DNA of 44,529 nt from Dehalococcoidia bacterium. GTDB lineage: Bacteria; Chloroflexota; Dehalococcoidia; SZUA-161. A program made the position numbers and the translations under genes. The stretch covers positions 1 to 44,529 of the forward strand of contig DUEY01000018.1 in assembly GCA_011174795.1 (NCBI GenBank). The letters run 5' to 3'. The notes below the pieces were generated by a model. It saw only the letters and a program-made list of their open reading frames with translations, made no database searches and was not told where the DNA came from. Positions 11,592-34,140 of the stretch are shown here, piece after piece (position 1 is the stretch's first letter; the number at the start of each line of letters is the position of its first letter).

Positions 11592-12779
11592 CTACTGGGG
11601 CGCTCCCTTCACTTTAATAACCAGGAAATCCCAGTCACACTCTCCTTCATCATCACAGGATGCTGTCTCACCGGCGACGATGTAGCCGCCGTCGAATGTT
11701 TGTTGCACTGAGCTTGCCATTTCATAACCGTTGGCGTCGAATGTCCTGCTCCACTCCTCCTCCCCCACACCATTTGTTTTAATGACCCAGAAATCAGCCC
11801 CACCCGCTCCAAAAGAGTTCGTTTCGCCGGCGACGATGTAGCCGCCATCAGACGTCTGCTGCACTGCATTCGCCCCGTCAGGATCAGGGCCGCCGAAAGC
11901 CTTTCCCCATTCCTCATTCCCCTGCCTATCAACCTTTACCAGCCACAAATCCCACCCCCCTGCCCCATATGACTCCGTCACGCCAGCTATGATGTAGCCG
12001 CCGTCGGATGTCTGCTGCACAGCCCTCGCCTTGTCATCCTTATTACCCCCATAAGCATTACTCCATTCCTCCGTCCCATTACCAGCCACCTTGATAAGCC
12101 ACGCATTGATACCTCCCGGCCCATATGAGCTCGTCCAACCAACAATTACGTAACCACCATCGGACGTCTGCTGCACAGAGTATGCCGTATCATGGGCAAC
12201 ACCACCGTAGGTCTTGCGCCACTCCATTGTTCCATTACCAGCAGCTTTGACAAGCCAGAAATCAACTCCCCCTGCCCCATAGGAGCCTGTATATCCAGCG
12301 ATAATATACCCCCCATCGGACGTCTGCTGCGCAGAGAATGCCCAATCTTCCTCAGGGCCACCATAGGTTTGGCTCCACTCCTCATTGCCCTGCTCATCGA
12401 CCTTAACGAGCCAGTAATCCCACCCTCCATCTCCGTACGAATCCGTCTTCCCAGCTGCGAGGTAGCCGCTGTCAGATGTCTGCTGCACCGAGTATGCAAT
12501 ATCGACGCCAGGGCCACCGTAGGGCTTGCTCCATTCCACCTTACCGTTCTCATCGGTCTTCACCAACCAGAAATCGTACCATCCCGCGCCATGTGACTGC
12601 GTTCCTCCGGCAATAATAAAGCCACCGTCCGACGTCTGCTGCACTGAATATGCCCTGTCTAAGGCAGGACCGCCGTAGGTCATGTGCCACTCCTCATCAC
12701 CCTCATTCAATTTGCAACCAGCAGTAAGCATACTGAAAATTAAGAAGCTGCCCAGCAGTATAAACAGTGCTTTCTTCAA
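11592..12779 (-). CDS. Lipoprotein with seven WD-like propeller repeats (paralogue A)
   Basis: A lipoprotein signal peptide with lipobox ending at Cys22 (MLTAGC) is followed by seven tandem units of about 52 residues covering residues 31 to the end. Each unit starts at Trp and reads roughly W-x2-T-YGG, then [13 protein letters not shown], then a GAGG turn and D-x-WLVK-x-D-x2-G. Seven such four-strand units would close a seven-bladed beta-propeller on the outer face of the membrane. The start is TTG at 12779 with AGGAAAG upstream. The function is unknown; proteins of this kind are usually surface binding or scaffold modules. It is a paralogue of the gene upstream (12957-14738). Confidence 0.85.
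   Translation of the reverse strand: MKKALFILLGSFLIFSMLTAGCKLNEGDEEWHMTYGGPALDRAYSVQQTSDGGFIIAGGTQSHGAGWYDFWLVKTDENGKVEWSKPYGGPGVDIAYSVQQTSDSGYLAAGKTDSYGDGGWDYWLVKVDEQGNEEWSQTYGGPEEDWAFSAQQTSDGGYIIAGYTGSYGAGGVDFWLVKAAGNGTMEWRKTYGGVAHDTAYSVQQTSDGGYVIVGWTSSYGPGGINAWLIKVAGNGTEEWSNAYGGNKDDKARAVQQTSDGGYIIAGVTESYGAGGWDLWLVKVDRQGNEEWGKAFGGPDPDGANAVQQTSDGGYIVAGETNSFGAGGADFWVIKTNGVGEEEWSRTFDANGYEMASSVQQTFDGGYIVAGETASCDDEGECDWDFLVIKVKGAPQ
11595..12689 (-). repeat. Seven-unit 156-bp coding repeat array in lipoprotein A
   Basis: The units are about 156 bases long and share a near-invariant core encoding QQTSDGGY. On the plus strand this core appears as blocks close to GCCATCGGACGTCTGCTGCA. Unit seven is the most diverged ([19 protein letters not shown]). 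The even spacing indicates growth by duplication under selection for a whole propeller. Confidence 0.8.
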
Positions 12780-12956: not shown

Positions 12957-14738
12957 CTACTCCTCGGCAGAACGTGGCTGCTTCAGCTTGATAACCCAGT
13001 AATCAAACCCCTCTGTACCATGTATCTCGGTATAACCAGCAACTACGTAGCCGCCATCCGACGTCTGCTGCACCGAGTTTGCTCCATCATCGTAGTAACC
13101 ACCATAAACCCAACTCCACTCCATCTCTCCACTTGCATCCGTCTTGACCAACCACAAATCCTTACCACCTGCGCCATATGAAGACGTGGAACCAGCGATT
13201 AAATAGCCGCCATCCGAGGTCTGCTGCACAGAGTTCGCTACATCATCACCAGCACCGCCGTATGTATCGTTCCACTCCTCCTCTCCCTTTTCATCCGTCT
13301 TCACCAGCCAGATGTCCTCCCCTCCTGCTCCAAATGACTCTGTATAGCCTGCGATGATGTAGCCGCCATCGAACGTCTGCTGCACAGACCCTGCGACATC
13401 AGCACCTTCGCCGCCGAATGTTCTGGCCCAGCGCTCCACACCATCCTTATTCACTTTTAACAGCCAGAAATCCATCTCATCTAGCGTTGCACCGGTGGCA
13501 CCAGTCATGATATAGCCACCGTCAGATGTCTGCTGTACAGAACCCGACCCATAATGGTCGGCCCCTCCGTAGACCCTGCGCCACTTCTGCGTTCCATTAT
13601 TATCTGTCTTGATGAGCCATAAATCAGCAGACAACCCAGACGCTCCAAATCCAGCGATTATATAGCCGCCATCTGACGCCTGGTGTACGAAATTCGCCAT
13701 TTCCATTAGATAGCTGCCAAAGGTTTTACTCCACTGCCCTTTCCCATTCTCATCCATCTTTATAAGCCAGATATCCGTCCCGCCTTCACCGATTGATCCC
13801 GTATATCCGGCAACTATGTAGCCACTATCAGACGTCTGGTGCACAGAGTATGCCCCGTCAGGTTCAGAACCACCGTAGATACTGCGCCACTCCTCGGTGC
13901 CATTACCATCTATCTTTATAATACCGATATCAGACTCCCACCCTTTTGAACCAATTATGCTCATCCAGCCAGCGACAATGTATCCACCATCAAATGTTTG
14001 CTGCACCGAGCACGCTACATCCTTGCCGCCAGCGCCGCTGAAAGTCCTCGCCCACTCTATTCTCGGGTACACACCAGTCGTTGAAGCCGGCGTAGGCGTA
14101 CATACTGCTGTACTCGATGGGGTGGGGGTAGGGGTCACCTGCGCCATTCTTGCCAGCGCTTCTTCATACAGGGTCTCACATACGGAGATATCATCGACGG
14201 AAGATACGATAGATTCTGCTGCATCCACCGCACCCAGCACAACATCCGCATCATGTGTGCCAGCCGCCTCCGCTATCAACTCAAAAGCCTCTATTTGAGC
14301 CCCCGACCATAGATAGAAGCACTCATGATAATCGGCAAAGTTGCTGGTCGGTGTGATCGCATCCCACTGCTCATTAATACCCGTGCATTCCCCGATAAAA
14401 CTCTCCATGCTTATTTTCAGTATCTCGCAGGCTGTGTACTCATCACCTGAAACCATGAGCTCGGTCTGAAGGGCAATAACCTCATTAGCCGCGTTTACTG
14501 CTTCTTTGTGCTGTCTGGCAAGAGCAGCAACACTATCAATATAGTCATCATCGGTGAATGCGATAGGGGTGGAGGTAGGTGCAGGGGTAGGAGTGGGTGC
14601 AGGGATAGAGGTAGAAGTAGGACGAGGTGTCGGTTTTGGAGGCGTATCCCCTCCACCACAACCAGCAGCAGACAAGCTTACAGCCAGAACGCAAGCCAGC
14701 ACTATAGAAATAGCCCTCTTCACCTCACCCCTCCTCAT
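12957..14738 (-). CDS. Lipoprotein with helical N-terminal domain and seven propeller repeats (paralogue B)
   Basis: The 593-residue protein starts with a lipoprotein signal ending in SLSAAGC (Cys27). A Pro/Thr-rich tether (about residues 32-60) leads to a helical, acidic domain of about 135 residues ([19 protein letters not shown] to EALARMAQV) containing four to five Cys. A second Pro/Thr linker (201-222) precedes seven repeats of about 52 residues from Trp229 to the end. The repeats match those of the paralogue downstream. The protein should stand off the membrane on the outer side. No catalytic motif is visible. The helical domain is not one I recognise. The start ATG at 14738 has GAGG upstream. 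Confidence 0.85.
12960..14054 (-). repeat. Seven-unit coding repeat array in lipoprotein B
   Basis: Seven units of 50-55 residues follow the same W-x2-T-YGG / [13 protein letters not shown] / D-x-WLVK plan as the neighbouring array. Units three and four are shorter and more diverged (VHQASDGGY; the GAGG turn is lost), while units five to seven are close to the consensus of the other gene. Both arrays having exactly seven units supports a closed propeller. Confidence 0.8.
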
Positions 14739-14834
14739 TCCTGCAACCCATATCTAGAAAATCAATAAGGAACCTCGTCAATCGACTGCGGCACCTATTC
14801 TATCGCAACACCTATGGTAAAACAAACCATCAGT

Positions 14835-15956
14835 TTAAAGACCATGACGGGGGAAGATACGCCTTTTTACCTCTGCCACGCTTTCTGCAGCGAAGCTGCG
14901 GGCCCGCTCTTTAACCTTGCTGTCAAGTTGCGGCTTATTTACATCCCTTAGCTTCCTCAAACCGTATTGCTCCCGGTATTCTGCAGGTATTTCATCGGGC
15001 CAATCCCTGCCCACCATTACTCCATATGCCAAGGTCCAGCACCTTACCACTACGCTCGGTTCATAGCCCCCTCCACCCAGCGCAAGCCACCTCTTAGCTA
15101 CTTGACTCATCCTGCTCACCAGACCATCATAACCCTCGGTAGTCAGGCTGAGTTGGGTCAGCGGATCAAGGTGATGGGTATCAGAGCCAAGCTGGGTTAC
15201 CAGTATATCCGGCTTGAAGCCCTCTATCAGCGCTGGCACTACCTGATCATAGGCCCAGAGATACACCTCATCATCAGTAAAAGGCGCAAGTGGTATATTA
15301 ACCGAATAACCCTCCCCAGCCCCCACACCCACCTCTTTGACATCACCACTGCCGGGAAAGAGATACCTTCCCGATTCATGAAGCGAGACCGTTAGAACCC
15401 GGTCACTACTGTAGAAAGCTTCCTGCACCCCGTCACCATGGTGAGCGTCAATGTCAATGTAAGCAATTCTTATCCCTTTCGCCAGCAGACTCTCTATAGC
15501 AATCACAACATCATTGAATACGCAAAAACCTGAGGCATGGCTGGGAGCGGCATGGTGCAGACCACCTGAACAATTGAAGGCAACGTCTACGTCACCCTCA
15601 GAGACCATCTCTGCTGCTTGTAAAGAGGCTCCCACTACAAGGGTTGACAGCTCGTACATACCGGGATAAATGGGATTGTCACCCATCTGGCTGAAATTGA
15701 AACGAGCGGGATCGATTTTACTTTTGCCTTTGCTGAAACTTTTCACCGCTGTTACGTACTCCCTTGTATGAAAAGAAAGCGGGGCGGATTCATCAGCATC
15801 CTCAGGAGCAACCAGTAGCGAATCCGGCGAGTCAAAAGCCCGGTAGGCTTTCAATAGTTCATAGGTATATTGCAGGCGCGTAGGGCCAAACACCTCGTCC
15901 ACCCTGCTGTCGCGCCGGGTCAGTTCTTCACCGTAGATGAAAGCCGCTCTCTTCAT
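14835..15956 (-). CDS. Histone-deacetylase-fold (AcuC-like) metal-dependent deacetylase
   Basis: The 373-residue protein has all landmarks of the arginase/deacetylase fold used by class I-type enzymes: GGLHHAAPSHASGFCVFND (catalytic His pair), DIDAHHGDGVQEAFY (zinc-binding Asp and His), QLGSDTHHLDPL (where the second zinc-binding Asp lies) and LGGGGY. Bacterial relatives are AcuC (acetyl-CoA synthetase regulation) and acetylpolyamine or acetoin-related hydrolases. The sequence does not separate these. Its start overlaps the stop of the Mut7-C gene by four bases (ATGA), so the two are translated together. The protein is cytoplasmic. Confidence 0.92.
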   Translation of the reverse strand: MKRAAFIYGEELTRRDSRVDEVFGPTRLQYTYELLKAYRAFDSPDSLLVAPEDADESAPLSFHTREYVTAVKSFSKGKSKIDPARFNFSQMGDNPIYPGMYELSTLVVGASLQAAEMVSEGDVDVAFNCSGGLHHAAPSHASGFCVFNDVVIAIESLLAKGIRIAYIDIDAHHGDGVQEAFYSSDRVLTVSLHESGRYLFPGSGDVKEVGVGAGEGYSVNIPLAPFTDDEVYLWAYDQVVPALIEGFKPDILVTQLGSDTHHLDPLTQLSLTTEGYDGLVSRMSQVAKRWLALGGGGYEPSVVVRCWTLAYGVMVGRDWPDEIPAEYREQYGLRKLRDVNKPQLDSKVKERARSFAAESVAEVKRRIFPRHGL

Positions 15957-16423
15957 CCGGAACCTGCCATTTTCTCAAGCTCCCTGCTCATCCTCTCCCA
16001 ATGAGTTCCTCGCCAGTATATACGCCGACACTTGGGACACTGCATATACTTATCTTTTGTTTTATAAACATACGGCGGCACTAATTGCTCAACATCCTTC
16101 TTTTCCCTGGGCACCAGTGTTTCGTTGCACTCTATACAAAGTGAGAACGGGCTCAGTTGTCCAGCCAAGTTGAGTGTGGTCAGCACCTGACGCAGCTGAG
16201 CCTTGACCTCATCATCCTCTATCAATACAACCCTCAGACGGCCGCTGGCGACTACGCGCCTCTTCAGGATATGTGTATCTTTGGTGAGCAGAATCCTACT
16301 CTGGTCTAAAGCGATACGGACCAGTCTGTTATCATCTATGTCCTTGATGAATAAGGTGTCAAAACCAGCGATCCTGAGCCATCTAGCCAGCTTCCCAACA
16401 TTTGAGTCTACGACAAATCTCAT
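15953..16423 (-). CDS. Mut7-C family PIN-like RNase with zinc ribbon
   Basis: The N-terminal half is PIN-like: VVDSNVGKLARWLRIAGFDT, with Asp6 as the first acidic residue, then LLTKDTHILKRR. The C-terminal half is a zinc ribbon with two CxxC pairs (CIEC, CPKC) and the family ending IYWRGTHWERM. This is the stand-alone Mut7-C/DUF82 protein of 150-160 residues, predicted to be a ribonuclease from its fold and its place in eukaryotic Mut-7. It is the first gene of the minus-strand pair with the deacetylase and is divergent from the RNA-repair genes archease and rtcB. Confidence 0.9.
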   Translation of the reverse strand: MRFVVDSNVGKLARWLRIAGFDTLFIKDIDDNRLVRIALDQSRILLTKDTHILKRRVVASGRLRVVLIEDDEVKAQLRQVLTTLNLAGQLSPFSLCIECNETLVPREKKDVEQLVPPYVYKTKDKYMQCPKCRRIYWRGTHWERMSRELEKMAGSG

Positions 16424-16487
16424 GTCTGGATTGTACCATAAAACCCCTGTATAGAATTCCCAATTAGGCTTATTGGCACACAGATGG

Positions 16488-16493
16488 TATAAT
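16488..16493 (+). promoter_or_regulatory. Likely -10 box for archease-rtcB
   Basis: A perfect TATAAT lies 24 bases before the archease ATG in the 94-base divergent gap. A -35 box at the right distance is weak (TTAGGC with an 18-base spacer), so the promoter may need an activator or extended contacts. Confidence 0.5.
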
Positions 16494-16517
16494 TTAACTT
16501 TGCCATAGGAGTTCCTG

Positions 16518-16931
16518 ATGACGAGGTTTGATATAATCGACCATACCGCTGATGCCGGGATCGTTGCTTACGGGAACGACCTCAGGGAAGCTTTCGCCAA
16601 CGCAGCCTACGGTATGTTCAGTTTAGTTGCCGAACTCAATGGTATAGGTGAAGGATCTTGCCATGAGGTCAATGTTGAAGCCACTGACCAAGAGGCACTG
16701 TTAGTAGCATGGCTTAATGAATTGCTCTATCTATTCGATGTCGAACGTGTCATCTTTCACAGATTCGATATAATAGAGTTAGAGAATAACCGGCTCCAGG
16801 CAAAGGCCTATGGGGAGAAGATAGATAAATCGCGCCATCTTCTCAAAACAGAGGTGAAAGCAGCTACCTACCACTCTCTGAAAATAGAGAAGGAAAACGG
16901 CTTCAGGATTCAGGTCATCCTGGATATGTAG
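16518..16931 (+). CDS. Archease, RtcB cofactor
   Basis: The 137-residue protein begins FDIIDHTADAGIVAYG, the archease signature, with the acidic metal-binding residues of the family in DHTAD. Its middle segment (LVAWLNELLYLFDVERVIF) and the closing KAATYHSLKI are also typical. Archease speeds RtcB guanylylation and turnover and lets it use other nucleotides. It is followed 11 bases later by rtcB, the classic pairing. The TATAAT above is the likely promoter. Confidence 0.95.
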   Translation: MTRFDIIDHTADAGIVAYGNDLREAFANAAYGMFSLVAELNGIGEGSCHEVNVEATDQEALLVAWLNELLYLFDVERVIFHRFDIIELENNRLQAKAYGEKIDKSRHLLKTEVKAATYHSLKIEKENGFRIQVILDM

Positions 16932-16942
16932 GGGGATGTGAA

Positions 16943-18403
16943 ATGCCAGCAGGTAAAAAGGGGAAGCTGATAAAAATAGACGATTATCGCTGGGCGATAC
17001 CCAAGACCTACAAGCAGGGTATGCGGGTGCCCGGGCTAATCTTCGCTGATGAAAAAATGCTTGCCCATATAGAGGAGGAACAAGCGCTGGAGCAGGTAGC
17101 AAACGTAGCCTTCCTGCCTGGTATAGTAGGCTACTCACTGGCGATGCCCGACATCCACTGGGGCTATGGCTTCCCTATCGGCGGCGTTGCTGCAACCCAG
17201 GTTAGGGACGGCGTTATCTCGCCCGGCGGCGTTGGCTTCGATATCAACTGCGGCGTGCGCCTACTACGCACCAACCTCACTGTTGATGAGGTCAAGCCCA
17301 GGATAGAGGAACTTATCTCCGACCTTTTCACCAACATTCCATCCGGATTGGGGTCCGAGGGTAAAATAAAGCTCACGAGCAAACAGCTGGACAAGCTCAT
17401 GCTCAAGGGCGCTGCCTGGGCCGTAGAGTCCGGGTACGGCGAACCGGAGGACTTAGAATATACCGAAGAGCGCGGATGTCTGCAAGGAGCCGATCCCGCT
17501 AAGGTAAGTGTTAAGGCGAAGAATCGCGGGATGCCGCAACCTGGCACCCTAGGCTCAGGGAACCACTTCCTTGAGATACAGGTAGTGGAAGAGATTTACA
17601 ATCTCGAAATAGCCCATGCCTTCGGTGTAGAAGTCAAAGAGCAGATACTCCTTCTTATTCACACCGGCTCAAGAGGACTGGGGCATCAGGTCTGTGATGA
17701 CTATCTGAAGACCATGGGTGCCGCCGTCAAGAAATATGGGATCGAGCTTCCCGACCGTCAGCTTGCATGTGCTCCCATAAAATCACCAGAAGGGCAAGCC
17801 TACCTGGCAGCTATGGCCTGCGCTGCCAATTATGCCTGGGCCAATCGCCAGTGTATAACCCATTGGGCCAGAGAGTCATTCAGCCGGGTGCTCTCAAAGA
17901 AAAGAAGTTCTCTTGGTATGGGGCTTATCTACGATGTGGCACATAATATAGCCAAGATAGAGAAGCATTACATTGAGGGTAAAAACTTAACAGTTTGTGT
18001 TCATCGCAAAGGCGCAACCCGGGCGTTCCCACCCAAGCACCCTGACCTGCCCCGAGCATATCGCAAAGCAGGACAGCCGGTGCTCATCCCCGGTGACATG
18101 GGACGTTACTCATACATAGCAGTAGGAACTGATAGGGCTATGGAGGAAACCTTCGGCTCCACATGCCACGGTGCGGGAAGACTTCAGAGCCGTTCTGCAG
18201 CGAAGAGAAGTATCCGTGGCGCTGACATTGCGGATGAGTTGACCGCCAAGGGAATTACCTTTCAGGTCGCAAGCATTGCATCCCTAGCAGAAGAAGCCTC
18301 GGCAGTCTATAAAGATGTAGCCGAAGTAGTGCATATAACGGAAGCGGCTGGTATCTCGCCCCGGGTAGCCAAAACCAGACCCATCGGAGTTATCAAGGGC
18401 TAG
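16943..18403 (+). CDS. rtcB: RtcB 3'-phosphate RNA ligase
   Basis: The length of 486 residues and the motifs fit RtcB: MPDIHWGYGFPIGGVAA, GGVGFDINCGVRLLRT (Asp100 and Cys103 as metal ligands), GSGNHFLEIQ and HTGSRGLGHQ (metal-binding His), and HRKGATRAFPP, which holds the His that is guanylylated. It joins RNA 2',3'-cyclic phosphate or 3'-phosphate ends to 5'-OH ends in tRNA or mRNA repair. GGGGG five bases upstream fixes the start. It acts with the archease encoded immediately before. No intein or insertion is visible. Confidence 0.97.
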   Translation: MPAGKKGKLIKIDDYRWAIPKTYKQGMRVPGLIFADEKMLAHIEEEQALEQVANVAFLPGIVGYSLAMPDIHWGYGFPIGGVAATQVRDGVISPGGVGFDINCGVRLLRTNLTVDEVKPRIEELISDLFTNIPSGLGSEGKIKLTSKQLDKLMLKGAAWAVESGYGEPEDLEYTEERGCLQGADPAKVSVKAKNRGMPQPGTLGSGNHFLEIQVVEEIYNLEIAHAFGVEVKEQILLLIHTGSRGLGHQVCDDYLKTMGAAVKKYGIELPDRQLACAPIKSPEGQAYLAAMACAANYAWANRQCITHWARESFSRVLSKKRSSLGMGLIYDVAHNIAKIEKHYIEGKNLTVCVHRKGATRAFPPKHPDLPRAYRKAGQPVLIPGDMGRYSYIAVGTDRAMEETFGSTCHGAGRLQSRSAAKRSIRGADIADELTAKGITFQVASIASLAEEASAVYKDVAEVVHITEAAGISPRVAKTRPIGVIKG

Positions 18404-18462
18404 CCCCTGTCACGATGACTATCAAGCTTAGCATAGTCGCAACTGGGGCATGCATAAAGCCA

Positions 18463-18491
18463 TTGCAGCAAGATACACAGGTGACTATAAT
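18463..18491 (+). promoter_or_regulatory. Promoter of the tail-anchored unknown gene
   Basis: TTGCAG (18463-18468), a 17-base spacer and a perfect TATAAT (18486-18491) make a good housekeeping promoter. Transcription should start near 18498, at the left edge of the palindrome described next. Confidence 0.65.
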
Positions 18492-18498
18492 TAGATAG

Positions 18499-18526
18499 AT
18501 TAATGCAAGAGCGTGCTCTCATTAAT
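18499..18526. promoter_or_regulatory. 28-base interrupted palindrome at the presumed transcription start
   Basis: The arms are ATTAATG / CATTAAT outside and AGAGC / GCTCT inside, around a two-base centre, with a two-base bulge (CA) on the left only. The position, right after the -10 box, suits an operator for a dimeric repressor. It would equally form a 12-base-pair hairpin at the 5' end of the message that could protect or regulate it. Confidence 0.5.
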
Positions 18527-18546
18527 GAAGCTTCAGAGACGTATTC

Positions 18547-18972
18547 ATGGCTAAACCCATCAAGAGACATCTCCGAATCGGCAATGCACCCGCACAAGAC
18601 GAGGGCAAACTGCTTGTTAGAATGCACCGAGATGACCTGCCCAAGGGTACCAAATGGAACAGATATATCCACCTTACAACTAAGAACACCAGAATAACGT
18701 GTAAAGTGCGAAACAATGAACTTGTTGAGGTACCACATCCGCGTGTGCATCAGCTAAATATCAACAAACATCTCAGACAGATACTTGGCATCAAAACGGG
18801 ATCGGTATACGATTTTTACGTTAGCAAAGCGTCTTTCCTGAGAGCACCCTCATACGTCCTGCGGTTTCACCCCAATAAGACTGTTAGGCAGAATATGTTT
18901 ACGAAAATAGTCCTAGCACTCGTGTTAATCCTCGCTATGCTTGGCGCAGCTATATATTACTTTGTCTTCTAA
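18547..18972 (+). CDS. Unrecognised tail-anchored protein
   Basis: I do not recognise this 141-residue protein. It has a basic N-terminus, a compact middle rich in strands (KWNRYIHLTTKNTRITCKV, then VPHPRVHQLNINKHLRQIL, then GIKTGSVYDFYV) and a single hydrophobic segment at the very end (residues 119-141). The segment LRQILGIKTGSVYDF recalls the loop of AbrB/SpoVT-type or double-psi-barrel folds, but this is weak. With no signal peptide and a C-terminal anchor, the domain should face the cytoplasm, held at the membrane. It stands alone behind its own promoter and a palindrome. Confidence 0.7.
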   Translation: MAKPIKRHLRIGNAPAQDEGKLLVRMHRDDLPKGTKWNRYIHLTTKNTRITCKVRNNELVEVPHPRVHQLNINKHLRQILGIKTGSVYDFYVSKASFLRAPSYVLRFHPNKTVRQNMFTKIVLALVLILAMLGAAIYYFVF

Positions 18973-19045
18973 TATCACTCTCTGCGATTTTCTCGCTTCA
19001 CCTGACCAGATATAAAACCGACTTTCAATGCATTGGAAACACAAG

Positions 19046-19075
19046 TTGACAACTTCGGCCCATGTATCCTAAAAT
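19046..19075 (+). promoter_or_regulatory. Promoter of the yceD-rpmF-fab operon
   Basis: TTGACA (19046-19051), an 18-base spacer and TAAAAT (19070-19075). The predicted start of transcription is near 19082. This excludes the in-frame ATG at 19062 as a start and supports ATG 19137 for yceD. Confidence 0.7.
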
Positions 19076-19136
19076 TGTTACCGCACACTTCACGCCGCCT
19101 GGTCACCGGCAGAAAGCCCCCATTTCTGAGGATAGA

Positions 19137-19655
19137 ATGAAAATCAATGTCGCCCAGCAAATGAGAGAAGGTATAGGATCAGTTCGCCACTATGAGATTA
19201 ATGAAGTGGGTGAGAATGGATTCCCTACCCGTGGCGATTTGCAACTACTTCGTACCAATCGCAGCATTCTGGTACGCGGTAATCTCGAGACTACCGCCAG
19301 GGAAGTGTGCAGCCGCTGCTTAGAAGAGTTTGACTATCCCCTATCCCTGGATATTGAGGAGGAATATTTCTTAACGAGAGACCCTGTTAGCGGTCAACCG
19401 CTTGATCCACCAACCGAATCCGGCGGCTTTATTATCGACGATAATAACGTCCTCGATTTAGACGAGGCAGTACGACAATATATTCTATTAGAACAACCCA
19501 TGAAGCCTATATGCAGGGAGGGCTGCGCCGGATTATGTCCCCAGTGTGGTCATAACCTTAACTACGGAAAATGTGATTGTAAACAGGATCACGTTGACTC
19601 ACCCTTGGACCGACTCCAGGAGTTACTTCCAGATAAGAAATCGAAAGGTAAATAA
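19137..19655 (+). CDS. yceD: YceD/DUF177 family protein
   Basis: From the ATG at 19137 (GAGGATAG just upstream) the protein has 172 residues. It carries the DUF177 features CSRCLEEF (about residue 65) and a second Cys-rich group near the C-terminus (CREGCAGLCPQCGHNL), which probably bind zinc, followed by DSPLDRLQELL. DUF177 proteins are almost always encoded next to rpmF, as here, and are linked to 23S rRNA processing or L32 handling; the exact activity is not known. A longer reading from 19062 overlaps the promoter and lacks a ribosome site. Confidence 0.88.
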   Translation: MKINVAQQMREGIGSVRHYEINEVGENGFPTRGDLQLLRTNRSILVRGNLETTAREVCSRCLEEFDYPLSLDIEEEYFLTRDPVSGQPLDPPTESGGFIIDDNNVLDLDEAVRQYILLEQPMKPICREGCAGLCPQCGHNLNYGKCDCKQDHVDSPLDRLQELLPDKKSKGK

Positions 19656-19675
19656 AGAGAGAGGTCTAACTGATA

Positions 19676-19870
19676 ATGGCTCTGCCTAAGAGGAAATATG
19701 CCAAGGCCCGGCAGGGGAAAAGACGCAGCCACCTTAAGCTGGCTGTTCCTTCGCTCGTTCCCTGCCCCCAATGCCATAGTAACAAGCCTGCCCACCAAGT
19801 TTGTCCCTTTTGTGGGACCTACAGGGGAAGGCAGGTGATTACAGAAAGCAAGCCAGGGAGAAATCAATAG
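19676..19870 (+). CDS. rpmF: Ribosomal protein bL32, zinc-binding form
   Basis: The 64-residue protein begins MALPKRKYAKARQGKRRSH, the bL32 N-terminus. Cys30, Cys33, Cys43 and Cys46 give the zinc ribbon of the C+ form. It is part of the large ribosomal subunit. It lies 20 bases after yceD with GAGAGG upstream, and fabD follows after 16 bases, so ribosome and fatty-acid genes are co-transcribed. Confidence 0.97.
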   Translation: MALPKRKYAKARQGKRRSHLKLAVPSLVPCPQCHSNKPAHQVCPFCGTYRGRQVITESKPGRNQ

Positions 19871-19886
19871 CCTGCGGAGGCAGCTC

Positions 19887-20828
19887 ATGGTTGAGCTGAA
19901 GAAAACATCAATATCCAAGACGGCTTTCGTCTTTCCCGGCCAAGGTTCACAAACTGTGGGTATGGGCTACACGCTCTACCAGAGTTCACGTCAGGCCAGG
20001 GAAGTCTTCGAGGAGGCTGACTCTGCCCTCCAGATACCACTCTCACGCCTCTGTTTTGAGGGGCCTGAGGAAGAACTGCGCGAGACTATAAACGCCCAAC
20101 CAGCGATACTGACCACCAGTGTCGCTTGCCTCAGAGTCGCCGCAGATTTTGGTATCCCATTAGAGCCTGCCCTTGTCGCTGGACACAGCCTCGGTGAGTA
20201 TACTGCTCTCGTTGCTTCAAATACTATTGAATTCACCGACGCAGTCCGTCTCGTCAGAGAGCGAGGGCGCTTGATGCAGGAAGCGGGCAAGACCAAACCC
20301 GGAGGAATGGCCGCAATAATTGGCCTTGACGAAATATCTTTAGAGGCGGTATGTCTGGAGACCGGCGCTGAGATAGCTAACTTCAACTGCTCAGGGCAGA
20401 TCGTTATCAGCGGCACGAGAGAGGCACTAGCCCGCTCTATGGACCTGGCCAAAGCGAGAGGAGCCAAACGGGTCGTACCCCTTCAGGTCAGCGGCGCTTT
20501 TCATTCCACCCTGATGCAGCCCACAATTGAGGGCATGTCCTTAGCTATTTCACGTATTGACCTGCACCTACCCGAAATCCCCATAGTTGCCAACAGTACT
20601 GCTCAACCTATGACCAGCGCCGACGAGGTTAAAGAGGAACTTATACAACAGCTCTGTCACTGCGTTCAGTGGCAGCCTTCAGTAGAATATATGGTGGAGG
20701 CCGGTGTCTCTACTTTCATCGAGATTGGCCCCGGACAGGTACTCACCGGCCTGATTAGAAGAATAAACGACAAGGTGCAAGTCCACAATATAAACGATAT
20801 AGAGTCCATCAAATCCCTAATCCTCTGA
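19887..20828 (+). CDS. fabD: Malonyl-CoA:ACP transacylase
   Basis: FabD moves malonyl from CoA to acyl carrier protein. The 313-residue protein has FPGQGSQ (residues 16-22, oxyanion Gln), the nucleophile in GHSLGEY (Ser101), and the catalytic His206 in SGAFHSTLM. The ending FIEIGPGQVLTGLIRR is typical. GGAGG six bases before the ATG fixes the start. The acyl carrier protein it serves is encoded three genes downstream. Confidence 0.96.
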   Translation: MVELKKTSISKTAFVFPGQGSQTVGMGYTLYQSSRQAREVFEEADSALQIPLSRLCFEGPEEELRETINAQPAILTTSVACLRVAADFGIPLEPALVAGHSLGEYTALVASNTIEFTDAVRLVRERGRLMQEAGKTKPGGMAAIIGLDEISLEAVCLETGAEIANFNCSGQIVISGTREALARSMDLAKARGAKRVVPLQVSGAFHSTLMQPTIEGMSLAISRIDLHLPEIPIVANSTAQPMTSADEVKEELIQQLCHCVQWQPSVEYMVEAGVSTFIEIGPGQVLTGLIRRINDKVQVHNINDIESIKSLIL

Positions 20829-20872
20829 AGGGGCTCTCTGTCTCACCTCAAATTCCACAACGAGGGTTAACA

Positions 20873-21616
20873 ATGGACTTATCTACAAGGGTTGCTATAG
20901 TTACGGGAAGCGGCCAAGGCATCGGTCGCGAGATAGCGTTGACACTGGCAGAGCAAGGAGCCAGCGTTGTAATCAGTGATATCAACGCTATGACCGCGAA
21001 TGATGTGGCATCTGAAATCGGAGCTAGAAAAGGAAAGAGCATCGCCATTGCCGCTGATGTTACTGTACAAGATGAAGTAACCCGACTCGTCGAGCAGACA
21101 ATTACCTCCTTCGGTAAAATCGACATCCTGGTGAATAATGCCGGAATTACGCGAGATACCCTGCTCTTGAGAATGTCCGATACCGATTGGGATCAGGTAT
21201 TGACTACTAACCTGAAAGGCGCTTTCCTTTGCACACAAGCGGTGCTGAGGCATATGGTTAAGCAACGCTGGGGGCGAATCATTAATATTGCCAGCGTCGT
21301 CGGCTTGATCGGCAACGCAGGACAAGCCAACTATGCCGCTGCAAAGGCTGGCTTAATAGGGCTCACTAAAGCCACCGCTCGAGAGGTCGCCTCACGAGGC
21401 ATAACCGCAAACGCGGTCGCACCCGGATTTATAGACACCGAGATGACCAGAAAACTCAGTGATAATGCTAGGCAGGAATTCCTCAGGCAAATCCCCATCG
21501 GAAACATCGGCTCACCCAGGGATGTGGCTTACGCTGTGTCCTTCCTTGCTTCAGAGGAGGCACACTATATCACAGGACAGGTGCTGAACGTTGATGGCGG
21601 GATGGTCATGGCATGA
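20873..21616 (+). CDS. fabG: 3-oxoacyl-ACP reductase
   Basis: This is a classical short-chain dehydrogenase of 247 residues: TGSGQGIG (11-18) for NADPH, NNAG (88-91), Ser141, Tyr154 and Lys158 as the catalytic set (YAAAK), and the C-terminal GQVLNVDGGMVM. It reduces 3-oxoacyl-ACP in fatty-acid elongation, supported by its place between fabD and acpP. It ends in TGA and the next open frame begins on the following base. Confidence 0.96.
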   Translation: MDLSTRVAIVTGSGQGIGREIALTLAEQGASVVISDINAMTANDVASEIGARKGKSIAIAADVTVQDEVTRLVEQTITSFGKIDILVNNAGITRDTLLLRMSDTDWDQVLTTNLKGAFLCTQAVLRHMVKQRWGRIINIASVVGLIGNAGQANYAAAKAGLIGLTKATAREVASRGITANAVAPGFIDTEMTRKLSDNARQEFLRQIPIGNIGSPRDVAYAVSFLASEEAHYITGQVLNVDGGMVMA

Positions 21617-21652
21617 ATGATTCTAGGCCTCTCGGGGCAAACAAAGGTTACT

Positions 21653-22069
21653 ATGGCACATATCAGGCGTAAAGCCAGAATCGCAGCACTGCAAGCGCTT
21701 TTTGAAAGTGATTCTTCCGGCCACAACCCTGAGAGCTCATTAAGCCGTCTGGCTGAGGAGCAAGTATTGCCCGAAATAGCACTATTATATGCCCAAGAAT
21801 TGATTAGAGGGGTTCTCGATAACAAAGAGCGAATTGACTCACTCATTAAGACGCACGCACCTAACTGGCCTCTAGAGCAAATCTCAGCCATCGACAGAAA
21901 TATTCTCAGGCTTGCAATTTTTGAGATTTTGATAGACAATAGAGTACCATCGAAGGCAGCCATAAATGAAGCTGTTGAACTGGGCAAAACCTTCGGCAGC
22001 TATAACTCATCCAGATTTATAAATGGAGTTCTGGGTTCCGTTAGTCGAATCAAGGTCAATAGCCAATAG
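21653..22069 (+). CDS. nusB: Transcription antitermination factor NusB
   Basis: The protein starting [18 protein letters not shown] has 138 residues, the NusB length. It shows [12 protein letters not shown], the conserved [14 protein letters not shown] and [18 protein letters not shown], and the closing FINGVLG. NusB with NusE joins rRNA antitermination complexes. The frame opens earlier at 21617, but family alignments begin at the ATG of 21653, so I use that. Finding nusB between fabG and acpP is unusual; it is normally beside other genes. Confidence 0.93.
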
Positions 22070-22119
22070 TCGCTAATAATGTTATTATAGTAAGCAATTT
22101 CCAGAAAGGGGGTAGCAGT

Positions 22120-22380
22120 ATGGCAACTATCCTTGAGCGGGTGAGAAAGATCATCGTCGACCAGCTTGGAGTAGACGAGGCAGAAGTCAAGGCCGATTCA
22201 TCCTTCGTCGATGATCTTAATGCTGATTCCCTCGACCTCGTAGAACTGGTAATGTCCCTTGAGGAAGAGTTCAGTACAGAGGGTAATCGCCTTGAAATCC
22301 CGGATGAGGATGCCGAGAAGATAAAAACCGTACAAGATGCGGTTGATTATCTCAAAGAGCGGGGTATCGAGGACGAATAG
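22120..22380 (+). CDS. acpP: Acyl carrier protein
   Basis: The 86-residue acidic protein has the phosphopantetheine attachment motif DSLDLVEL with Ser37, and the typical start [14 protein letters not shown]. It carries growing acyl chains as a thioester. AAAGGGGG upstream is a strong ribosome site, as expected for an abundant protein. It is the last gene of the yceD-rpmF-fab group; a long hairpin lies 100 bases downstream. Confidence 0.97.
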
Positions 22381-22462
22381 CACCACGTTTAAAACCTCTG
22401 CGCCCGAACCATCGAACAAGGTTAATTACAGAAGAACCGCCGAATCAAAGCTATTATAACCA

Positions 22463-22476
22463 CTTCGTGAACGAAG
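22463..22476. other. Short hairpin downstream of acpP
   Basis: CTTCGT, two bases and ACGAAG form a six-base-pair stem just before the larger hairpin. It is too short on its own to assign a role. Confidence 0.35.
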
Positions 22477-22480
22477 ATAC

Positions 22481-22523
22481 TCACCGCGGTTGAGTTTAAG
22501 TAAGGCAACTCCAACCGCGGTGA
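22481..22523 (+). terminator. Long GC-rich hairpin, possible terminator of the fab operon
   Basis: The outer arms TCACCGCGGTT and AACCGCGGTGA are perfect complements and the inner arms GAGTT / AACTC extend the stem with one bulged base, around a ten-base loop. The following bases are TATTATTCTC, a poor U-tract, so intrinsic termination would be weak. A processing or mRNA-stabilising hairpin is an alternative. It sits in the 300-base gap between acpP and the TauE/SafE genes. Confidence 0.5.
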
Positions 22524-22545
22524 TATTATTCTCTGCTATATATCG

Positions 22546-22561
22546 AAGAGAAGCCTCTCTT
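22546..22561. other. AAGAGA/TCTCTT hairpin in the acpP-tauE gap
   Basis: A six-base-pair perfect stem with a four-base loop. No T-run follows on the plus strand. Apart from this, the other hairpins and the promoter at 22634, I see nothing in the 300-base gap. Confidence 0.3.
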
Positions 22562-22633
22562 AACAACAACACCTGGTCACATTTATCGAAGGCTCATATC
22601 GACACGCAGTATTTATCTCAAGAAACAGGTTCA

Positions 22634-22662
22634 TTGACTTGATATAGGGCCTGTGCTATCTT
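22634..22662 (+). promoter_or_regulatory. Promoter of the TauE/SafE pair
   Basis: TTGACT (22634-22639), a 17-base spacer and TATCTT (22657-22662). Transcription would start near 22669, only about 12 bases before the GTG start, and no clear ribosome site is present, so the message may be nearly leaderless. Confidence 0.55.
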
Positions 22663-22680
22663 ATCCTCAGATAATTAGTA

Positions 22681-23040
22681 GTGACAACAAATACTATCTG
22701 GTATCTAGCGGCAGGGGCAGGAGCGGGAATGCTGGCTGGGTTTCTGGGAATCGGCGGTGGAATCATCCTCGTTCCAGTGATAACCGGTCTCTTGTGGCTT
22801 GACCAACATAAGGCCCATGGCACTTCGCTCGCCATAATAATTCCCATCGCCATAGCGGGCACCGTTGTATACGCTCTACGGGGACAAGTCAGTTGGTCTC
22901 TTGTTGCAACGATAGGCTCAGGAAGCGTTATCGGCGTTATCTTAGGAGCGAAACTGATGATGAAGATCCCCCCTCACAGGCTGCAACAGGTTTTCGGCCT
23001 ATATGCCATAGCTATTGCTATACTGCTGTTGCAAAGGTAG
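22681..23040 (+). CDS. Half-size TauE/SafE membrane protein, first partner
   Basis: This 119-residue protein starts at GTG 22681 and has about four hydrophobic segments. It has the TauE/SafE (formerly DUF81) signature GFLGIGGGIILVP near residue 20 and the HGTSLAIIIP segment. Normal family members have about 250 residues with two such repeats; this gene holds only one and the next gene holds the other. The two probably pair as an inverted-topology dimer to make one transporter for a sulfur compound or organic anion. The substrate is unknown. Confidence 0.82.
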   Translation: MTTNTIWYLAAGAGAGMLAGFLGIGGGIILVPVITGLLWLDQHKAHGTSLAIIIPIAIAGTVVYALRGQVSWSLVATIGSGSVIGVILGAKLMMKIPPHRLQQVFGLYAIAIAILLLQR

Positions 23041-23051
23041 CTCGAGCGCAT

Positions 23052-23435
23052 ATGGACATCATAATCGGCATTATCGTGGGTTTTATCGCCGGGATATTCA
23101 GTGGAATTCTGGGTATAGGTGGTGGCACAATTGCAGTACCGGGTATGGTTCTACTTCTGGATACTGAGCAACATATAGCTCAGGGGGTATCGCTGACCGC
23201 CCTGCTCCTAACAGCCGTGGTCGGAACCTTTGTACACTATCGCCAGAAAAACCTCGATTTAAAGATGGTGATGTGGATTGCTCCCACAGCAGTGGTTTTT
23301 TCTATTCTTGGTTCCTGGGCCGCAGGTCGGGTTGATGCTGACTGGTTAACCCGCGTTTTCGCCATCGCATTGCTGGTTATTGGCTGCAGAATGTTACTAA
23401 TCAGTAGAGGGGGGCAAGGTGTCCGCACTGGCTGA
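23052..23435 (+). CDS. Half-size TauE/SafE membrane protein, second partner
   Basis: Starting at ATG 23052, the 127-residue protein has the same signature (GILGIGGGTIAVPGMVLLL, about residues 18-36) and AQGVSLTALLLTAVVGT, with about four membrane segments. An upstream reading of the frame to 22893 overlaps the first half gene and is not used. It follows the first half by 11 bases in a different frame, and its end overlaps the uracil-DNA glycosylase start by 17 bases. Two separate half genes rather than a recent frameshift are likely because each has its own start and a full repeat. Confidence 0.8.
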   Translation: MDIIIGIIVGFIAGIFSGILGIGGGTIAVPGMVLLLDTEQHIAQGVSLTALLLTAVVGTFVHYRQKNLDLKMVMWIAPTAVVFSILGSWAAGRVDADWLTRVFAIALLVIGCRMLLISRGGQGVRTG

Positions 23436-24018
23436 ACTCTACCAGAAGATAGAAGCCTGCCGAGATTGCGAGGAGCTCGCCAGAAACCGAACCAAGGTAG
23501 TGCCCGGCGAGGGAGCTGAAAACGCACAAATTGTGTTCATCGGCGAGGCACCGGGCTTCCACGAGGACCAACAGGGTCGCCCCTTTGTGGGCCAGGCAGG
23601 GCAGTTCCTTGACTATCTGCTCAAATCAATTAACCTGACGCGCAACGATGTCTACATTTGTAACGTAATCAAATGCCGCCCACCAGAGAACCGCGATCCC
23701 CTTCCTATAGAAATCAATAATTGCCAGAAATGGCTTAATCTCCAGATCGAGTTGATCTCACCGAAGGTGATCGTCACCCTCGGTCGTTATTCACTGGCTA
23801 AATTCTTCCCCGGTGAATCAATCAGTAAAGTACACGGTAAGGAACGCAAGAAAGATAACACCATCTACTACCCCATGTATCACCCTGCCGCAGCCCTTCA
23901 CCAGCAGAGCTTGCGACAGACTATCGAAGCAGATATGCAGAATATACCTGCTATACTAGCTCGAATAGATGAGATTCAGGAGGAGGAGAGCAAACCACAG
24001 CAGCTATCCATGTTCTAG
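23419..24018 (+). CDS. Family 4 uracil-DNA glycosylase with 4Fe-4S cluster
   Basis: The 199-residue enzyme removes uracil from DNA. It has GEAPGFHEDQQGRPFVGQAGQFLD (motif 1 region), NVIKCRPPENRDP, and YHPAA near the end (motif with the catalytic-site His). Cluster ligands are the CRDC pair (residues 14 and 17), the Cys of IKCRPP and the Cys of NNCQKW. The start is GTG at 23419 with GGGG upstream. The C-terminus ends QQLSMF, which matches the bacterial sliding-clamp binding motif QL(S/D)LF closely. The gene is followed by the FtsK translocase after 14 bases. Confidence 0.93.
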   Translation: MSALAELYQKIEACRDCEELARNRTKVVPGEGAENAQIVFIGEAPGFHEDQQGRPFVGQAGQFLDYLLKSINLTRNDVYICNVIKCRPPENRDPLPIEINNCQKWLNLQIELISPKVIVTLGRYSLAKFFPGESISKVHGKERKKDNTIYYPMYHPAAALHQQSLRQTIEADMQNIPAILARIDEIQEEESKPQQLSMF

Positions 24019-29572: not shown

Positions 29573-30721
29573 ATGAACTACGGTGAGAGGCAATCTAAGG
29601 TGATTAAATCCAAGATATTTTTTCTATTCCTTGTGGTCTTGTTGCTGGTCAGCGCATGTAACACTACGTCTCATCAAGCGAGCACTCCTACCCCGACCGT
29701 GAATCCCACACAGCATTCAACAGCGACGCCTACACCTATCCAAACCCCTGCTCCATCGAACCAGACCTATACATCACCCTTCCCATCCATCGCCGATATC
29801 GTGGATATGGTAAAACCAGCGGTAGTTTACATCTCCGTCGAGTACATTGAATCCTCTTTCTTCTTCAGGTCCACGAGCACCAAGAGTGGCTCCGGCGTGA
29901 TTCTCAGCCCTGATGGCTATATTCTGACTAACAGCCACGTTATCGAGGATGCCGAAAAAATTGAGGTGCTGCTCCCAGACGAAGTGGATACCCATCCGGC
30001 TGAAATCATAGGCACGGATTCACTCAGCGACCTCGCAGTGATTAAGATAGATGGACATAACCTCCCCACTGCTGAGTTCGGCGATCCGTCAAAGCTTCGG
30101 GTCGGTGACTGGGTAGTAGCGATGGGCAGTCCCCTATCTACCATTCTTGGCGCAGAAGGCGGCCCCTCGGTAACCATAGGCATAGTGAGCAATCTCGAGC
30201 GCTCCTTTAACCTGGAAGATAGCGCATATTACGATGTAATCCAGACGGATGCCGCTATCAACCCCGGAAATAGCGGCGGTCCGCTGATAAACCTAGAGGG
30301 CCAGGTGGTAGGGATTAACACCTTCATCATTTATACAGCGCAGAATATAGGGTTCGCGGTGAGCGCCAGTACTGCCCAGCGAGTGTACGAGGACCTTGTC
30401 GAATTCGGAGATGTTATCCGTCCATACTTAGGCGTCACCCTGCGAACAGTAACACCGGCGCTCGCCACTGAACTCGGGTTGGCAAAGAATCGAGGGGTTT
30501 TAATCTGGTACGTCGAGCCCGATAGCCCGGCATGGAAAGAGGGTCTCGAGGTTGATGATGTCATCACGCACTTCCAGGGGCAAGAAGTAACGGAGGCCTC
30601 CCAGCTAATAAAGCTCTTATGGCAGTACGAAGTCGGGGACAAGGTGCAAATAATCTACTACCGGGGAACCGAGCAGCATATAGCCTGGGTAAGCCTCGTG
30701 GAGAGACCGGAAGACCGTTAG
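29573..30721 (+). CDS. HtrA/DegP-like serine protease with PDZ domain, lipoprotein
   Basis: The 382-residue protein has a hydrophobic signal with lipobox ending at Cys29 (LLVSAC), a Pro/Thr-rich tether (about 38-66), a trypsin-like domain and one PDZ domain (about 280-375). The triad is His122 (TNSHV), Asp153 (DSLSDLAVIKI) and Ser234 (NPGNSGGPL). It should be anchored on the outer face of the membrane and handle misfolded exported proteins. A GTG at 29600, behind GAGAGG, would shorten the N-terminus by nine residues and may be the true start. The stop overlaps the convergent ileS stop by four bases. Confidence 0.94.
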   Translation: MNYGERQSKVIKSKIFFLFLVVLLLVSACNTTSHQASTPTPTVNPTQHSTATPTPIQTPAPSNQTYTSPFPSIADIVDMVKPAVVYISVEYIESSFFFRSTSTKSGSGVILSPDGYILTNSHVIEDAEKIEVLLPDEVDTHPAEIIGTDSLSDLAVIKIDGHNLPTAEFGDPSKLRVGDWVVAMGSPLSTILGAEGGPSVTIGIVSNLERSFNLEDSAYYDVIQTDAAINPGNSGGPLINLEGQVVGINTFIIYTAQNIGFAVSASTAQRVYEDLVEFGDVIRPYLGVTLRTVTPALATELGLAKNRGVLIWYVEPDSPAWKEGLEVDDVITHFQGQEVTEASQLIKLLWQYEVGDKVQIIYYRGTEQHIAWVSLVERPEDR

Positions 30722-33700
30722 CGGCTCAGCCTCTTCACCGCCAGCGTCACCTCATTACCTTCGAGGACGTGGCTTTTTACAAAGGCATCATCCGGAGGGC
30801 TTCCCTCGACCAGTGCTCTTGACAGTGTTTCCTGTTTAATATAGCTGGCGAACTCATTCATTACCCGCTTGATCGATTCACCCCCCTGGTAGCAGGTCTC
30901 GATATAATCAGCGATATCGAAGCCGGCTTGCTTTCGCATCGTTTGCAGACGGTGAACCAGTTCTCGTGCCATACCTTCATCGGCAAGCTCAGGAGTAATG
31001 TCACTGTCCAGCATCACTTCCAGACCACCCTCCTCGGCAACAGGCCAATCAGGGTGTTCGTCAGTTTGAATCCTATCGACAGTATGTAACTCCTTGACAT
31101 TGAGCTCATCGAGCACCTGCGGGGCCATTTGCCTTAAAATCTCTTTCTCACGTTCAGTTCTCACCCTGACCAGAACCTTAGCCAACGGCTGGCGCACCTT
31201 CAAGCTCGCCCTGGCGCGTGCAGAGCGTCCCAGACTCGACACTGTCATCACCAGATGAGTAGCAGAAGATAACTTCTCGTCAATCTTGCTCAGGTCGGCT
31301 TGGGGGTAATCCGTGAAATGAACGCTCTCCGGAGCGCCCTCATCAACCACCCTGACCAGGTTCTGATACATCTCCTCGGCGATGAACGGGATAAAAGGAG
31401 CCAGCAGCCTTGCCAGGGTTACTAAACAATCGTAAAGGGTGGTATAAGCCGCTTGCTTGTCGGTGTCGTTCTCACTCTTCCAGAACCGCCTCCGGCTCCT
31501 CCTCACGTACCAGTTAGAGAGGGCCTGCACAAAATCCTCGAGCTTCCTTCCCGCCCCCGTGGGATCGTATTCATCGAGTGCGCGTGTCACTCCATCTACA
31601 AGCTGGTTGAGCTCCGAGAGTATCCAGCGGTCGAGCTCGGGCAGAGACTCTGGGGTAACAGCAGTACGAGGGTCGAACTTATCAATATTGGCGTAGGTCA
31701 CAAAGAATGAGTAGGTATTCCACAGTGTCAGCAGAAACTTGCGTACTACTTCGTCGACATACTGTTTGGAGAAGCGGCGCACGTTGCCCGGTGGGGACGA
31801 CGTATATAAATACCAGCGCAGAGCATCGGCACCGCTGCTGTCCAGTACCTCCTCAGGTGTAACGACATTGCCCTTCGATTTGCTCATTTTCTCCCCGGCG
31901 CTGTCAAGGATATGGCCGAGGCAAATCACGTTCCTGAAGCAGGGCTGCTCCTCGATCAGTATGGATATGGCATGCAGGCTGTAGAACCATCCCCTTGTCT
32001 GGTCCACCGCCTCACAGATGTAGTCGGCGGGGAAGCGGCTCTGGAAGATATCGCGGTTCTCGAAAGGATAGTGCCACTGGGCGAAAGGCATTGCCCCGGA
32101 GTCAAACCAGCAGTCTATGACCTCGGCCACACGGCGCATCTCCTGTTTACATTCGGGGCAATCGTATGTCACTTCGTCAATATAGGGGCGGTGCAAATCC
32201 GTAAGCTGAGATACTCCCGTAACACCCTGCTTGCCTTTCAACTCATCGACGCTTCCTATGCACTCCTCGCGGCTACAGCCCTGACAGCGCCAGATTGGCA
32301 GCGGCGTCCCCCAGTAGCGCTCGCGGGAGAAAGCCCAGTCAACGTTATTGTTCAGCCAGTCGCCGAACCGCCCCCGCTTGATGTACTCAGGATACCAGTT
32401 TATCTCCTCGTTCCCCGAGATGAGCCTTTCCTTTTTCGCCGTGGTCCGGATATACCACGAGGGCTTAGCGTAGTAGAGCAGCGGCGTGGCGCAGCGCCAG
32501 CAGAAGGGGTAGGTGTGGCGAATGGTCTCACTGCGGTAGAGAAGACCCCGCGATCCAAGGTCTTCGAGGATGAGCGGGTCTGCTTCTTTAACAAAAAGTC
32601 CAGCGAAGCGATAGGTGCCCTGAACGACGCCCTCTAAATCAACGTAATCCCGCACAAAGTCCAGCCATTTATCCATACCTACTTCAAAGTCCACATCGCC
32701 AAAGGCAGGTGCGATATGTACAATGCCGGTGCCGTCCTCTAAGGAAACAAAATCACCAGCAATAACCGGATAATTGAAGACTCCCCCTTCTGCCCAATTA
32801 ATGTCAGCAGAAGGTTCTTTTGCTTCTTCCCATGGGCCTTTTTCCTCCCATGTGTCCATTCTGCGAACAGGTACTTCAAAGTCGAACGGATTAAATAGCG
32901 GCTTATACCTCAGTTCAACTAAAGAACTACCTTCAACTCTTGCAACCTCCCTGTAGCCTTCAAGCCCCACCATAAATACAAGCGCCGAAGCCATGATAAG
33001 GTAGTCATTCTTACCCTCCATCACCGAATACTCGGCATCCGGCGCCACAGCCAGAGCCGTATTCCCGGGGAGCGTCCAGGGGGTAGTAGTCCATGCCAGC
33101 AGGTAGACGGGCTTATCCCCCACCAACTCAAGAAGCCACTCTGCAAAATCAGCTTCCCTATCACCATAACCCTTTCTTAGTTTGTCTAGAAAGCCCGTAC
33201 TCGTATATAGTGATTTCGCCGTCTCAAATTTTACGTAAATCGAAGGGTCGTCCGCCTCCTCGTAGCCCAGTGCAACCTCATGGGATGACAGCGAGGTTTC
33301 ACAGCGCGGGCAATGCGGTGTAACCTTATAGCCCTGATAAATGAGCTTCTTATCCCAGAGTTGTTTTATTATCCACCAGCAGGTCTCGATATAGCTGTTG
33401 TCGAAGGTTATATAGGGATGCTCCATATCTATCCAGAACCCTATACGGTCGGTAAGCTCCTCCCACTCCTTAACATACTTGAGCACGTTTTGTCGGCAAC
33501 GGCTGTTGAACTCAGCAATACCGTACTTCTCGATATCAGGCTTGCTCTTGAGCCCCAGCTCGTTCTCGACCTCAAGCTCAACCGGAAGCCCGTGGGTATC
33601 CCAGCCGGCACCGCGCGGGACGTAATATCCCTTCATCGTCTTATAGCGGGGAAATATATCCTTGAACACCCTCGCCAGTACGTGGTGGATTCCCGGGCTG

Positions 33701-33855
33701 GCATTAGCCGTCGGTGGCCCATCATAGAGCACGTAGAGAGGGGCACCCTGACGCTGCTCCACGCTCTTCTCGAAGGCACGCTTCTCCTTCCAGAAGGTGA
33801 GGATTCGACGCTCCAGCTCAGGGAAGCTCACCTTGCTGGTCACCGGTTTGAACAT
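30718..33855 (-). CDS. ileS: Isoleucyl-tRNA synthetase, long (type 2) form
   Basis: The enzyme charges tRNA-Ile and edits valine. The 1045-residue length and the HIGH-region form PPTANASPGIHHV match the long, eukaryote-like IleS2 group, whose members are often resistant to mupirocin (known of the family, not tested here). KMSKSKGN is present near residue 657. TTTPWTLPGNTALAV marks the editing domain. AGCAGGAGG lies before the ATG. The T-box leader directly upstream indicates control by uncharged tRNA-Ile. The gene meets htrA tail to tail with a four-base overlap and no terminator between. Confidence 0.97.
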   Translation of the reverse strand: MFKPVTSKVSFPELERRILTFWKEKRAFEKSVEQRQGAPLYVLYDGPPTANASPGIHHVLARVFKDIFPRYKTMKGYYVPRGAGWDTHGLPVELEVENELGLKSKPDIEKYGIAEFNSRCRQNVLKYVKEWEELTDRIGFWIDMEHPYITFDNSYIETCWWIIKQLWDKKLIYQGYKVTPHCPRCETSLSSHEVALGYEEADDPSIYVKFETAKSLYTSTGFLDKLRKGYGDREADFAEWLLELVGDKPVYLLAWTTTPWTLPGNTALAVAPDAEYSVMEGKNDYLIMASALVFMVGLEGYREVARVEGSSLVELRYKPLFNPFDFEVPVRRMDTWEEKGPWEEAKEPSADINWAEGGVFNYPVIAGDFVSLEDGTGIVHIAPAFGDVDFEVGMDKWLDFVRDYVDLEGVVQGTYRFAGLFVKEADPLILEDLGSRGLLYRSETIRHTYPFCWRCATPLLYYAKPSWYIRTTAKKERLISGNEEINWYPEYIKRGRFGDWLNNNVDWAFSRERYWGTPLPIWRCQGCSREECIGSVDELKGKQGVTGVSQLTDLHRPYIDEVTYDCPECKQEMRRVAEVIDCWFDSGAMPFAQWHYPFENRDIFQSRFPADYICEAVDQTRGWFYSLHAISILIEEQPCFRNVICLGHILDSAGEKMSKSKGNVVTPEEVLDSSGADALRWYLYTSSPPGNVRRFSKQYVDEVVRKFLLTLWNTYSFFVTYANIDKFDPRTAVTPESLPELDRWILSELNQLVDGVTRALDEYDPTGAGRKLEDFVQALSNWYVRRSRRRFWKSENDTDKQAAYTTLYDCLVTLARLLAPFIPFIAEEMYQNLVRVVDEGAPESVHFTDYPQADLSKIDEKLSSATHLVMTVSSLGRSARARASLKVRQPLAKVLVRVRTEREKEILRQMAPQVLDELNVKELHTVDRIQTDEHPDWPVAEEGGLEVMLDSDITPELADEGMARELVHRLQTMRKQAGFDIADYIETCYQGGESIKRVMNEFASYIKQETLSRALVEGSPPDDAFVKSHVLEGNEVTLAVKRLSR

Positions 33856-33870: not shown

Positions 33871-33906
33871 AAACAGAAAGTCCCATCCCCGAAGGGACGA
33901 GACTTT
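33871..33906 (-). terminator. T-box terminator hairpin
   Basis: On the minus strand AAAGTC and GTCCC pair with GGGA and GACTTT around TTCG, followed by CTGTTTT. The left arm overlaps the end of the T-box antiterminator region, giving the expected mutually exclusive fold. Confidence 0.75.
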
Positions 33907-34140
33907 ATTCCCGCGGTACCACCCTTCTTCCCCGACTTGTCGGGGCTCTCATGAAGGCACGTGTTCATACCCCGTCCGGGATAACGGTGGACGAGACCGG
34001 CCAAGTCTACTCCCCCACCTCATGCGGGGTTTCGGTTGGCGGCTCAGGAGGGATTTTCGAACGGGTTAGTCACATCTGCTCACACCGTACCAGACTCGCT
34101 GGGTGATACGCCCGTCTACTCGTCTCCGTCGCTGCCTTTA
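33871..34140 (-). promoter_or_regulatory. T-box leader controlling ileS
   Basis: The antiterminator core AGGGTGGTACCGCGG (minus strand, 33911-33925) is the T-box hallmark. In the presumed Stem I, GAGTA (loop-E like) faces an unpaired stretch holding ATC at 34052-34054. Flanking pairs GGAG/CTCC and ACGGG/CCCGT frame that loop. ATC is an isoleucine codon, so it fits as specifier for tRNA-Ile. Uncharged tRNA-Ile would bind there and at the TGG bulge and let transcription continue. TTGACA on the minus strand at 34172-34177 may be the -35 box, but its -10 partner is unclear. This element explains the 338-base gap between ileS and the hydratase gene. Confidence 0.93.

Follow-up and report, generated by a model that had tools for sequence, protein, structure and literature searches.

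The window analysed here is an entire contig of 44,529 bases from a draft genome of 1.81 Mb (76 contigs, 89.6% complete). In the region of interest, the gene order is archease (16518), rtcB, a gene for a protein of 141 amino acids and a YceD-family gene (19062). The features discussed below are the following:

16943-18403, plus strand: rtcB (tRNA-splicing ligase family; Pfam PF01139, E 3e-176), immediately upstream of the 141-aa gene

18463-18491, plus strand: sigma-70-type promoter, composed of TTGCAG (18463-18468), a 17-base spacer and TATAAT (18486-18491)

18499-18526, plus strand: interrupted palindrome, or potential 5'-terminal mRNA hairpin, of 7 + 5 Watson-Crick pairs with a 2-base bulge

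18547-18972, plus strand: 141-aa gene, for a probable CDC48_N-like double-psi beta-barrel (sequence profiles) with a predicted C-terminal helix, probably a membrane anchor

Several other elements accompany them in the window. A candidate promoter of the YceD gene, TTGACA-18-TAAAAT, is located at 19046-19075, and a promoter with TAAAAT or TACAAT is found at a similar distance in five relatives. A T-box leader (33890-34141, minus strand; Rfam RF00230, 102.3 bits) closely precedes the gene for a 1045-aa class I tRNA synthetase (30718-33855, minus strand). It is the sole Rfam match of the window at the gathering score, and no known Rfam leader is matched at the palindrome. A 395-aa ORF (11592-12779, minus strand) has no Pfam match at E <= 0.001.

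The preliminary description of this DNA placed the palindrome in front of an unknown gene; the gene is not wholly unknown, since sequence profiles point to its probable fold. Profile search detected homologs of the 141-aa protein in 7 of 393 genomes of the class. Around G306, which belongs to the same class, five of the 61 genomes carry diverged homologs; a viral collection contained no further ones. A profile was built from 11 homologs, six of them family members and five from around G306. Through its positions 5-43 it matches, with E down to 1.8e-5, PDB chains named DPBB, which are designed double-psi beta barrels; a CDC48 chain, 7dg9, follows (E 0.11). The designed barrels are derived from CDC48-type proteins. 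At a threshold of E <= 1, Pfam CDC48_N matches 9 of the 11 members, the lowest E being 0.0014; the window protein itself scores 12.7 bits, far under the curated cut-off of 35.1.

Both structure models of the protein are of low confidence. A fold search with the first (mean pLDDT 60.9) gave double-psi barrels and p97 as the top matches, at E 0.03 or worse, and a search with the second, built from 11 sequences (mean pLDDT 68.2), gave neither barrels nor p97 in the 50 of 134 matches listed. Since barrels are on top with the first model only, the assignment rests on the profiles: the product is probably a CDC48_N-like double-psi beta-barrel protein. In the second model, confidence is highest for the C-terminal helix (residues 111-140), the sequence of which is hydrophobic. 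This helix is probably a membrane anchor, and the product is thus likely to be a small barrel protein attached to the membrane.

Of nine genomes of the family, six, counting that of the window, carry the 141-aa gene; it is unmatched in G002, G004 and G007, also by profile. Protein identity with the relatives is 57-64%. In all six genomes with the gene, rtcB is its upstream neighbour (cut by the contig end in two of them), and in all six a TTGC[A/G]G-17-TATAAT promoter is found downstream of rtcB. Identity between the promoter of the window and that of each of the five relatives is 59-72%, with z of 4.4 to 6.8. A generic consensus scan omits this promoter because TTGCAG agrees with TTGACA at just 3 of 6 positions. 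Judged by its conservation, the promoter is real, and the promoter call that had been made from the raw sequence was correct.

The promoter pattern of the relatives was matched in 7 of 18 genomes of the order, the matches off this locus being L013, L016 and L017. Two further loci with the gene, L008 and L009, were left uncounted, as they appear to be the same places as two of the five relatives, L006 and L007. Other sequence follows rtcB, within 300 bases or less, in G002, G004, G007, at the second rtcB copies of G005 and G001, and in six other members of the order; these copies therefore provide no additional leaders for comparison.

The sequence AGGTGACTATAAT occupies 18479-18491, and four of the six promoters (the window, L003, L004 and L007) have AGGT(C/G)AC in front of TATAAT. 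The 13-base AGGTGACTATAAT pattern occurs once in its own genome. A conserved element extending beyond the plain -10 box may thus be present at these positions.

The palindrome reads ATTAATG-ca-AGAGC-gt-GCTCT-CATTAAT. Its bulge consists of two bases (CA) in the left arm only, and its centre of two bases (GT). The outer arms enclose N14, the inner arms N2, and their centres differ: owing to the one-sided bulge the two pairs of arms are off-centre and do not form one perfect dyad at the DNA level. The inner arms taken separately, AGAGC-GT-GCTCT, are a perfect dyad. Seven bases, TAGATAG (18492-18498), separate TATAAT from the palindrome, so that pairing begins at the 8th base after the -10 box. 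Transcription is expected to start about 7 bases after a -10 box, and this expected +1 coincides with the first paired base. The ribosome site, judged by eye, is outside the stem. The preliminary description had put the palindrome over the presumed transcription start and seen in it a possible 5' mRNA hairpin; both the position and the hairpin potential are supported.

Folded alone, positions 18497-18528 give -6.9 kcal/mol (z -1.47), a value reached by 20 of 200 shuffles. The palindrome hairpin is both the minimum-energy and the centroid structure of this stretch, and the identical stem recurs when the first 144 nt are folded to minimum energy, with z at +0.29 for this length. For the window leader starting at +6 after the -10 box, z is -1.48, -0.55 and +0.25 at lengths of 30, 36 and 42 nt, and a 61-nt stretch has z +1.12. 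The energy of the hairpin is small and varies with the stretch chosen.

When the six leaders are combined, again from +6 after the -10 box, they out-fold their shuffles (Fisher p 0.013, 0.014 and 0.012 for 30, 36 and 42 nt). The leaders of the YceD genes, which served as a control with n=5 (L006, the sixth, is too short), have no excess folding at the same lengths (p 0.98, 0.55 and 0.71). The combined signal is contributed mainly by L003, L004 and L007 and not by L005, the share of the window itself being p 0.08, 0.26 and 0.57. In a scan of 90 placements along the locus, p <= 0.03 was obtained in four, at +5 and +10 (leader start) and at +45 and +50 (around the start codon).

Stricter tests of a shared structure failed. 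Projection of the window pairing onto the alignment makes 56% of the cells pair, against 30-44% with the partners slid by 1-3 columns, but the shuffle control was not passed: the observed values were reached by 57 to 102 of 500 shuffles (four measures) and by 35 of 500 for pair types. RNAalifold gave no consensus pairs across the leaders, and the Watson-Crick stems of the five relatives are ordinary (p 0.08, 1.0, 0.72, 0.44 and 0.25). The leaders of L003, L004 and L005, the three closest relatives, are still alike among themselves (z 2.7 to 5.4), but their predicted stems are in differing registers and thus do not represent a single stem inherited by all three. In the G306 group of distant homologs, the three of five leaders that were folded are nearly unstructured and have no comparable stem (-1.7, -1.6 and -3.4 kcal/mol). 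In the leader of L042, a distant homolog, a four-pair stem is possible by eye. Conservation of a 5' hairpin in structure but not in sequence is therefore only hinted at.

If the palindrome acts at all, it could tentatively be explained best as a weak, lineage-specific 5'-terminal mRNA stem-loop. A transcript from the conserved promoter downstream of rtcB would start at the stem or within two bases of it, the paired 5' end could modestly slow 5'-end-dependent mRNA decay, and the stem would leave the ribosome site free. We infer the position of +1, the folding of the stem in living cells and any influence on transcript stability. The arms belong to this lineage alone, and the hairpins of the relatives in the same stretch are unrelated to them. 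A broader version, in which the transcript of the whole family must begin with a hairpin of free sequence and shifting register, with only 'a stem at +1' being selected, is improbable. If true, it would provide a further case of selection acting on the structure of a leader and not on its sequence, in a bacterial group represented in this analysis by draft genomes.

Nearly as likely as the weak 5' hairpin is coincidence, by which a functionless inverted repeat drifted up in a fast-evolving, unconstrained leader; an operator ranks third. The palindrome is indeed, as first described, the only operator-like site of its kind in the window, the single interrupted palindrome of its class with at least 12 pairs in 44,529 bases. 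However, 0.9 (sd 0.83) are expected by chance, according to 60 second-order Markov simulations of the window. Coincidence would also account for the state of the leader, which aligns with those of the five relatives only as well as shuffles do (z 0.1 to -1.5), whereas the promoter next to it stands out clearly, and for the lack of an RNAalifold consensus structure. It fits less well with the leader taken by itself: 12 pairs were reached by just 10 of 4000 dinucleotide shuffles of the 55-base leader, a figure weakened by the other leaders that may have been inspected implicitly, and by 3 of 1500 shuffles of the 143-base intergenic stretch. The palindrome is thus unremarkable window-wide and unusual for its own leader. 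The special position at the presumed +1 and the joint leaning of the six leaders towards hairpins speak against coincidence as well.

The repressor half of the original proposal, in which a dimeric repressor would bind the palindrome over +1 and block transcription, fared worse than the hairpin half and is unlikely. An operator is favoured by the overlap with the presumed +1 and by the perfect inner dyad. On the other hand, a comparison of sister genomes, proposed as a check at the outset, found the arms in none of the five relatives, all of which keep the promoter. This is the outcome that had been named in advance as a refutation, and it refutes a shared operator. The other proposed check, a search for further copies of the arms, returned ATTAATGN{6,22}CATTAAT at a single site of the 1.81-Mb draft genome; with the 24-base pattern and up to 3 mismatches, no second copy was found there, although a regulator of one gene would not need more. 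The differing centres of the inner and outer arms are also unfavourable, and the 21 window ORFs scanned against Pfam include no recognised transcription factor, save for a sub-cut-off MarR match inside FtsK. A lineage-specific operator is improbable rather than refuted: its position and inner dyad speak for it, and nothing further was found. The palindrome resembles operators over +1, such as lac-operator-like dyads, in having dyad symmetry over a presumed transcription start; it differs from them in that it is not conserved with the promoter, is present in a single copy and has arms put off-centre by the 2-base bulge.

An intrinsic terminator or attenuator, which would end rtcB read-through or stop the new transcript early, would suit a palindrome between rtcB and the next gene but is very improbable, as the stem is not followed by a T-run, is missing from the terminator scan list for 14000-24000 and is located downstream of the conserved promoter.

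The finding is an ordinary one and matters little: a promoter was called correctly from raw sequence, and the operator reading failed its own test. For the weak 5'-terminal stem-loop, the preferred reading, the systems to compare are stabilising stem-loops of 5' untranslated regions. In E. coli, ompA carries a 5'-terminal stem-loop that stabilises its mRNA. Stem-loops in 5' leaders are reported, in PMC7509114, to stabilise the mRNAs of A. baumannii recA and H. pylori vacA. Unlike the stem-loops of ompA, recA and vacA, the stem predicted here is weak (-6.9 kcal/mol) and unconserved in sequence, and its position at the 5' end is apparent only. The likeness to them consists in a stem-loop placed in the untranslated leader, with the ribosome site outside it.
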